A stretch of DNA of 24,688 nucleotides. It comes from an uncultured Faecalibacterium sp. GTDB taxonomy: Bacteria; Bacillota; Clostridia; Oscillospirales; Ruminococcaceae. Below, in pieces: positions 13,725-13,801 of this stretch (positions within the stretch are counted from its first letter, which is position 1; each line of letters opens with the position of its first letter). Made by a program: the position numbers and the translations under genes. Where the stretch lies: assembly GCA_900539945.1 (NCBI GenBank), contig UQDV01000038.1, positions 1 through 24,688 of the forward strand, given 5' to 3'. Under the pieces are notes generated by a model. The model was not told where the DNA came from. It was given only the letters and a program-made list of their open reading frames with translations, and did not search any database.

Positions 13725-13801
13725 CCGCTTCCTGCATTTGCGGGATTGCTCCAATGATTTAGCACAATGAGGGATTTTCCCCGCATTTGCGGGGGGGGGA
13801 C
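13725..13801 (+). ncRNA. crRNA-like mini-CRISPR (CreR/CreA-like), two degenerate repeats and one guide
   Basis: Degenerate repeat 1 (13725-13752) matches the array repeat at 18 of 28 positions and repeat 2 (13774-13801) at 21 of 28. Both keep the 6-bp Cas6e hairpin. In repeat 2 it is identical (CCCCGC/GCGGGG); in repeat 1 the outermost pair C-G has become T-A, a compensatory change, and one pair is a wobble. Both have loop ATTT instead of ATAC. Cas6e cleavage at the usual place would yield an 8-nt handle (13746-13753, TTGCTCCA against GTGATCCY), a 20-nt guide (13754-13773) and a 3' hairpin. It is expressed from the cas promoter and sits before cas3. The likely role is guiding Cascade to the cas leader for autorepression. 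A decayed orphan array is the main alternative. Confidence 0.75.

Follow-up and report, generated by a model that had tools for sequence, protein, structure and literature searches.

Cas-regulating RNAs encoded by mini-CRISPRs, termed CreRs, were reportedly described by Liu et al. in Cell Host Microbe in 2023. According to passages of three papers, autorepression by CreRs occurs in types I-B, I-E and V-A, and these RNAs respond to both crRNA abundance and anti-CRISPRs (PMC13131331, PMC12948488, PMC12737573). In the descriptions given by reviews, of which parts were available, a CreR is encoded by a mini-CRISPR beside the cas genes and is partially complementary to the cas promoter region, and the element reported here resembles it in both respects. 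It departs from that description in having a guide that follows its own target inside the predicted cas 5′ UTR and that has 12 nt fewer than the 32-nt spacers of the array. According to the same partial accounts the class has already been reported for type I-E, and our element would be a further member whose compact arrangement may be a variant.

A closely related anatomy is that of CreA of the CreTA modules, reportedly published in Science in 2021. In the available portion of PMC8501985, single changes at positions 1–5 and 7–11 of CreA abolish its antitoxic effect, whereas changes at position 6 or 12 do not; in that of PMC9458426, psiR1 of the CreTA repeats keeps the handle whereas psiR2 loses it. 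Insofar as these excerpts allow a comparison (PMC8501985, PMC9458426), our element shares with CreA two degenerate repeats, a 5′ handle from psiR1 and a 3′ handle from psiR2, a seed at positions 1–5 and 7–11 with positions 6 and 12 unpaired, and a target next to its own operon's promoter. In the same excerpts CreA represses a toxin RNA, whereas the genes recognized here behind the predicted promoter are those of the cas operon, starting with cas3, and the haloarchaeal type I-B repeats are without a conserved hairpin (PMC9458426), whereas the type I-E repeats described below keep one. CrePA (a CRISPR-repressed protein toxin with an RNA antitoxin), as partially described, is similar in that repression is guided to its site by the effector with a crRNA-like RNA; it differs in that our locus has no recognized toxin gene between the promoter and cas3.

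The window, that is, the whole stretch of 24,688 nucleotides that we analyzed, contains the features of a CreR: a cas operon with a linked pair of degenerate repeats, and a guide whose complementarity to the cas promoter region is limited and flanked by a motif. Judged on its sequence, the mini-CRISPR in the cas leader is very probably a CreR guide by which Cascade represses its own operon. The features on which this reading rests, and the genes around them, are as follows.

13655..13683, plus strand: predicted cas operon promoter, TTGAAA and TATAAT separated by 17 nt, with TG preceding the second hexamer
13704..13706, plus strand: protospacer-adjacent motif AAC of the target
13707..13721, plus strand: target of the guide (non-target strand), ATGATATAGCATAAT, matching guide positions 1–5, 7–11 and 13–15
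13725..13753, plus strand: psiR1, the first degenerate repeat, with a hairpin at 13730–13745 and an 8-nt 5′ handle at 13746–13753 (TTGCTCCA)
13746..13794, plus strand: predicted mature crRNA-like RNA of about 49 nt, assuming Cas6e cleavage at the 3′ hairpin bases
13754..13773, plus strand: guide of 20 nt, ATGATTTAGCACAATGAGGG, placed by the 29-nt repeat and the 8-nt handle
13774..13802, plus strand: psiR2, the second degenerate repeat, with the hairpin at 13779–13794 kept and the handle part lost into a G tract
13930..16659, plus strand: cas3 (Cas3_HD, DEAD and Cas3_C domains), its probable start placed by GGAGG at 13918–13922
16634..21257, plus strand: cse1, cse2, cas7e, cas5e and cas6e (CRISPR_Cse1, CRISPR_Cse2, Cas_CT1975, Cas_Cas5d and CRISPR_assoc)
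21250..23087, plus strand: cas1 and cas2 (Cas_Cas1; Cas_Cas2CT1978 plus RNase_T)
23117..24670, plus strand: CRISPR array of at least 26 repeats CTTTTCCCCGCATACGCGGGGGTGATCC(C/T), the last base being C or T, with a 61-bp period, running to the end of the window

A Pfam domain search identified a type I-E operon in the order cas3, cse1, cse2, cas7e, cas5e, cas6e, cas1, cas2. The first recognizable gene 3′ of the guide is cas3, the cse1–cas6e block encodes the Cascade subunits and the processing nuclease, and cas2 is fused to a DnaQ-like exonuclease domain. The array begins 29 bp 3′ of cas2 and we found no sigma-70-type promoter in front of it (positions 22600–23130); transcription together with the cas operon, under a shared control, is therefore possible. 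The candidate cas promoter has 11 of the 12 consensus bases and is the sole sigma-70-type match in 13500–13950, where shuffled sequence gave a mean of 1.0 hits at a looser threshold; in the entire window two sites reach at least 11/12, this being one of them. Another strong promoter-like site (TTGACA/TATACT) is found at 12882. The stretch just 5′ of the cas operon (12154–13510) encodes a repressor with HTH and S24-peptidase domains and two small ORFs, one of them weakly HTH-like; these genes may constitute a prophage-type control module.

A preliminary description of this DNA had reported two degenerate copies of the array repeat between the cas promoter and cas3, in crRNA orientation. Re-alignment gave the identical counts of 18/28 for psiR1 and 21/28 for psiR2, the copies do lie between the predicted promoter and cas3 in the orientation of the array, and the gap of 21 bp given for them holds when repeats are counted as 28 nt (20 nt when counted as 29). 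The two copies have diverged in different parts, as described for the CreTA repeats. psiR1 retains 13/21 of the first 21 nt and 5/7 of the handle bases, and psiR2 retains 18/21 of the first 21 nt and 3/7 of the handle, which is lost. Both keep the 6-bp Cas6e hairpin that had been claimed, with a loop of 4 nt: TCCTGC-ATTT-GCGGGA in psiR1 and CCCCGC-ATTT-GCGGGG in psiR2 fold on their own at −8.2 and −11.7 kcal/mol, respectively. The compensatory change at the first stem was also seen, a T-A pair replacing C-G at the base of the psiR1 stem, which has a T-G wobble as its fourth pair. Nine consecutive G residues (13791–13799) on the 3′ side of the psiR2 hairpin form a slippage-prone run.

A covariance model was built from eight array repeats of seven genomes, including the genomes of loci L028 and L077 introduced below and not those of L048–L050. 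In 23 kb of the window this model detected psiR2 with E = 0.0096 (the reading of its hairpin on the other strand gave E = 0.0072) and psiR1 with E = 0.25, and three unrelated places (9225, 14262 and 18501) scored at least as well as psiR1. psiR1 is therefore weak alone and the repeats are not decisive singly, so that the case rests on their spacing together with the matched target. A search of Rfam with the cas leader gave no match near a gathering score. Relative to the array repeat the psiR1 handle bases are changed from GTGATCC to TTGCTCC, and TGCTCC in place of TGATCC was found in three of six psiR1 copies (the window, L028 and L050). When five psiR1 stems were compared with four array repeats (psiR1 of L028, which its shorter loop had misaligned, was left out), 98% of the cells paired. 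Four of the six stem pairs had changed on both sides, so that the psiR1 stems pair through double changes; this number was reached by 0 of 500 shuffles, and the number of pair types in the set was reached by 31 of 500.

The mini-CRISPR RNA as a whole folds strongly (z −3.9). In the unprocessed window RNA, an interlocked helix between psiR1 and psiR2 is predicted to be 8.2 kcal/mol better than the two Cas6e hairpins, compared with differences of 0–3.4 kcal/mol in 25 of 25 array units and 0–4.4 kcal/mol in the other five mini-CRISPRs. The interlocked fold may indicate that processing is slow or that the RNA acts as a switch, or it may argue against processing.

The reading as a CreR-like guide, already proposed in the preliminary description, gains support from a target that had not been sought at that time. 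The best match to the guide in the whole window, on both strands and besides the guide itself, is 13707–13721, which starts 47 bp 5′ of the guide and is flanked by AAC. Within positions 1–15 the only mismatches are at 6 and 12, and position 16 and most later positions differ. In type I crRNAs every sixth position (6, 12 and onward) is left out of base pairing. A seed matching at 10 of 10 positions (1–5 and 7–11) next to AA arose in 0 of 3000 dinucleotide-preserving shuffles of the two flanks (212 and 131 bp), the guide being fixed.

We derived the motif apart from the target site. Array spacers matched 37 phage records, of which eight were inspected around the match, and two further matching records proved to contain arrays of the same kind (H1 and H2). 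With a cut-off of at least 28/33 matches we found 13 protospacers, one of them at the end of its record, which left 12 readable. The 12 all come from Microviridae records, and AA precedes seven of them (spacer 1 in two records, spacer 5, spacer 14 in one of three, spacer 15, and spacer 18 in two of three); the other five have GA, CA, TA, TA and GG (spacers 24, 14, 14, 18 and 25). In six of the seven AA cases the next base is C or T, like the ends of the array repeats. The motif is thus AA followed mostly by a pyrimidine, which AAC fits. In the inspected records, spacers 1, 5, 14, 15, 18, 24 and 25 match gokushoviruses or other Microviridae.

Other cas3 loci were collected by Cas3 search in overlapping sets of taxa, with matches in 24/396 genomes of one family, 6/31 genomes of the best hit's genus, 17/394 at the level of the order, 10/361 for the class and 24/368 for the phylum, and in 1/1, 1/3 and 4/6 genomes of three small genera. 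These yielded 79 leaders, the window included, with at least 200 bp 5′ of the Cas3 match (five were too short); some of the 79 are misplaced owing to a partial Cas3 hit or contig (as in L030, L044, L076, L104 and L106). L003 and L007 come from one genome, and L008 and L064 closely resemble each other. The covariance model was run over 83 loci (62 + 21) with default filters, so that weak elements may be lost. Apart from true arrays, five further loci proved to have a mini-CRISPR with a matched guide, which lies upstream of cas3 in L028 and L077 and behind cas3 in L048, L049 and L050. A hairpin-only scan had missed L028 because the psiR1 loop is 3 nt there, and leader-only scans had missed L048–L050 because their elements lie behind cas3; the latter were found by the covariance model.

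The guide sequences differ among the six elements and the pairing pattern is common to all of them. Guide and target match at positions 1–5, 7–11, 13 and 14 in all six, at position 15 in four, and at positions 6 and 12 in none, and the motif is AAC in three and AAT in three. Tested in the one true register, 3000 shuffles gave a 10/10 seed with AA 34 times for L028, twice for L048 and never for L077, L049 or L050, three registers having been tried in finding L048–L050 and offsets of 7–9 having been allowed in the hairpin scan. L028 is the weakest of the six because its guide is T-rich. In L048, L049, L050 and L028 guide and target share a strand and are 53–100 bp apart. The target of L077, which has another 9/10 site as its neighbor, is on the other strand, downstream of the guide and upstream of a promoter-like site. 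By eye, the targets of all five adjoin promoter-like sequence. The distance between repeats is 49–50 bp in the window, L028, L048 and L049 and 60–61 bp in L050 and L077. Target position 6 is an A in six of six elements. The 0 of 12 matches at positions 6 and 12 over the six elements are fewer than free drift would suggest.

An alignment across strains had been suggested as a check for covarying guide and target. Across the cas3 loci, the six guide/target pairs share one pattern, psiR1 stems covary as described above, and two loci of a single genus, L048 and L049, covary in the seed. Within the first twelve positions their guides differ at 1, 6, 7 and 8 and their targets at 1, 7, 8 and 12; the changes at the paired positions 1, 7 and 8 are matched (3/3), and those at 6 (guide only) and 12 (target only) are unmatched. 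This covariation is direct evidence of selection keeping the seed pairing. L048 has four repeats, and only its first guide has such a target. As a control, we compared array spacers with their own leaders in seven loci, the window included; none of 125 spacers, taken as those that follow a pattern-matched repeat, had a 10/10 or 9/10 site with AA. The last array repeat pair of L012 had no such target either, and among weaker matches in the other leaders none combined a 10/10 seed, the AA motif and hairpins. A scan run with neither the handle nor the hairpin condition returned many 12–13/13 matches, mostly terminator palindromes, tandem repeats and array repeats. The 10/10 matches with AA in L026 and L045, which lie in AT-rich leaders with neither hairpins nor handle, were set aside by eye as chance.

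The nearest relatives found (L008, L009 and L031–L034) and L064 are without the mini-CRISPR. L064 (MT835722.1) matches the cas operon and array of the window over about 11 kb at about 70% identity; this record is titled ‘Bacteriophage sp.’ and is a bacterial contig. The leaders of L009 and L031–L034 can be aligned with the window at the promoter and in the stretch just 5′ of cas3, and a sequence in these loci, TTTTTTCATTTGCGG, may be a relic of psiR2. In L032–L034 the interval between promoter and cas3 contains a terminator-like hairpin and a T run in place of the mini-CRISPR (by eye, GGCAC-GACCCGGT-GTGCCGTTTTTT in L032), which is perhaps an alternative means of damping cas expression. A scan of genome contigs gave six distant cas3 loci, none with the element (L001 is too short to judge). 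Viral contigs searched with Cas3 contained no relative, and three matches there to the pattern of the 3′ half of psiR1 were unrelated by eye. Plasmid records had no relative of the leader and matched Cas3 only at <60% identity (61 records).

The stretch between the target and cas3 was inspected for other functions. Behind the target, the ORFs of at least 20 aa in 13684–13935 comprise two small ones on the plus strand (20 and 32 aa), the remaining frames overlapping or extending cas3. The 32-aa ORF (13835–13933) overlaps the cas3 start and has no ribosome site in the window. The sequence at 13838–13877, GAAAGTCCTGTTTATGGGAT..TCTGTTATTCTTT, is conserved in L009 and L031–L034, and its changes are spread evenly over the three codon positions (L034, with no stop in its stretch, was left out of this count). 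With neither a ribosome site nor a codon-position bias, the 32-aa ORF was judged unlikely to be a gene, and the likelier identity of the conserved stretch is a DNA element that might serve as a second promoter or bind a regulator. If it were a second promoter, cas3 would be only partly under guide control, and this possibility has slightly lowered our confidence in the CreR reading, which remains high.

Three other explanations of the element were considered. One is that the guide belongs to a CreTA or CrePA module and silences a toxin, the cas genes being tied to the guide only as an addiction device. The anatomy is alike, with promoter, short stretch, target and guide in this order in the accessible part of PMC8501985, and the window offers two small reading frames for a toxin: the 32-aa ORF at the cas3 start and a mini-ORF ATGCGGATAAAAAGAGAACATGATATAGCATAA at 13688–13720 that carries ATA and AGA codons. 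However, this mini-ORF starts 5 nt behind the −10 box, which leaves no room for a ribosome site, and it has no tandem rare codons, and we judged it unlikely to be a CreT; the 32-aa ORF is unlikely on the grounds already given. No recognizable protein toxin gene was found under the targeted promoter by a Pfam search or among ORFs of at least 20 aa, and the failure to find a toxin-like gene between promoter and cas3 makes CreTA less likely. The genes behind the other guides bear on the same question. In L050 the next gene 3′ of the guide is cse1, its match starting about 60 bp past the second repeat, which argues against a toxin module. Behind the L049 guide are a 77-aa ORF (1033–1266, minus strand), a second small ORF and then cse1, and the 77-aa ORF is weakly like a ParE toxin (Pfam E 0.016, below the cut-off), a point in favor of such a module. 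Behind the L048 guide are two small ORFs with no family at Pfam's cut-off, and cse1 was not found in this genome with the Cse1 of the window as query. Because small ORFs rather than a cas gene directly follow the guides of L048 and L049, these two may be CreA-like and guard something else, L049 being a possible CrePA-like arrangement inside a cas operon, while the window, L028, L050 and L077 look CreR-like. For the window we consider a toxin module quite unlikely.

A second explanation is that Cas6e binds or cuts the leader hairpins and so acts only in cis on the stability or translation of the mRNA, no Cascade being bound to DNA, an idea favored by the position of the hairpins in the predicted 5′ UTR, by the presence of cas6e in the same operon and by the strong fold of the mini-CRISPR RNA. 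A purely cis-acting role gives no reason to expect a handle-spaced guide whose seed matches a motif-flanked site in the promoter region, yet this was found in all six loci, and by eye the mini-CRISPR of L077 lies upstream of the predicted promoter and so is probably outside the cas mRNA; we regard this explanation as highly improbable. Alternatively, the element could be a functionless decayed end of an array or a 47-bp tandem duplication of a spacer-repeat unit, the target being a left-over spacer copy. Target and guide indeed start at points separated by 47 bp and run into repeat-like stretches, psiR1 and psiR2, respectively, and relatives are without the element. However, neither decay nor duplication accounts for mismatches within positions 1–15 that are confined to 6 and 12, for the same two mismatches in five other loci that differ in target distance or strand, for AAC or AAT in all six targets, or for hairpin pairs that covary, and we give this explanation hardly any credence.

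If the element is a CreR, Cas6e would cut the leader transcript at both hairpins, releasing the guide RNA of about 49 nt, which would load into Cascade. The loaded complex would open a short R-loop at 13704–13721, about 15–30 nt behind the predicted start, and block polymerase, thereby repressing cas3 and the downstream genes. With pairing that ends near position 15–17 and a short guide, Cas3 would be kept from cutting the chromosome. Array crRNAs or anti-CRISPRs would draw Cascade off and repression would fall, so that a shortage of free Cascade would raise cas expression. Since the guide and the cas genes appear to share a promoter, the loop would be closed. From its title, a 2016 paper by Kuznedelov is said to show that type I-E Cascade with a shortened spacer can still interfere and prime, a point against this protection. 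Spacers of ≤24 nt in a type I-B system repress with neither interference nor priming, according to the accessible part of PMC10989794. In E. coli, by a similarly partial account, off-target binding of partially matched Cascade left transcription unchanged and Cascade roadblocks inside transcribed regions were weak (PMC5904413), which speaks against such a block.

A more specific reading, which combines these elements and which we put forward only tentatively and think rather doubtful, is a self-contained titration circuit with a short, weakly competing guide. Cas7 takes steps of 6 nt on the crRNA. The guide would be carried in the leader of the very mRNA that it silences and be freed by the Cas6e cut, and, being shorter by exactly two Cas7 steps, it would form a smaller Cascade that binds DNA without calling Cas3. 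Owing to its changed handle and interlocked fold it would compete poorly and obtain only the Cascade left over by array crRNAs. Selection would then, on more than one occasion, have produced a Cascade repressor of low affinity that is cleavage-proof.

A candidate cas-regulating guide and its target can be found from sequence alone. The search test that emerges here, a handle-spaced guide between two hairpins whose target has the AA motif, a matched seed at positions 1–5 and 7–11 and mismatches at 6 and 12, picks out six elements when applied to type I-E loci up to the level of the phylum, one in the window and five elsewhere. If the CreR reading is true, expression of these type I-E systems would be set by free Cascade and would answer to anti-CRISPR proteins, which would bear on whether native CRISPR systems in such bacteria are to be judged on or off.
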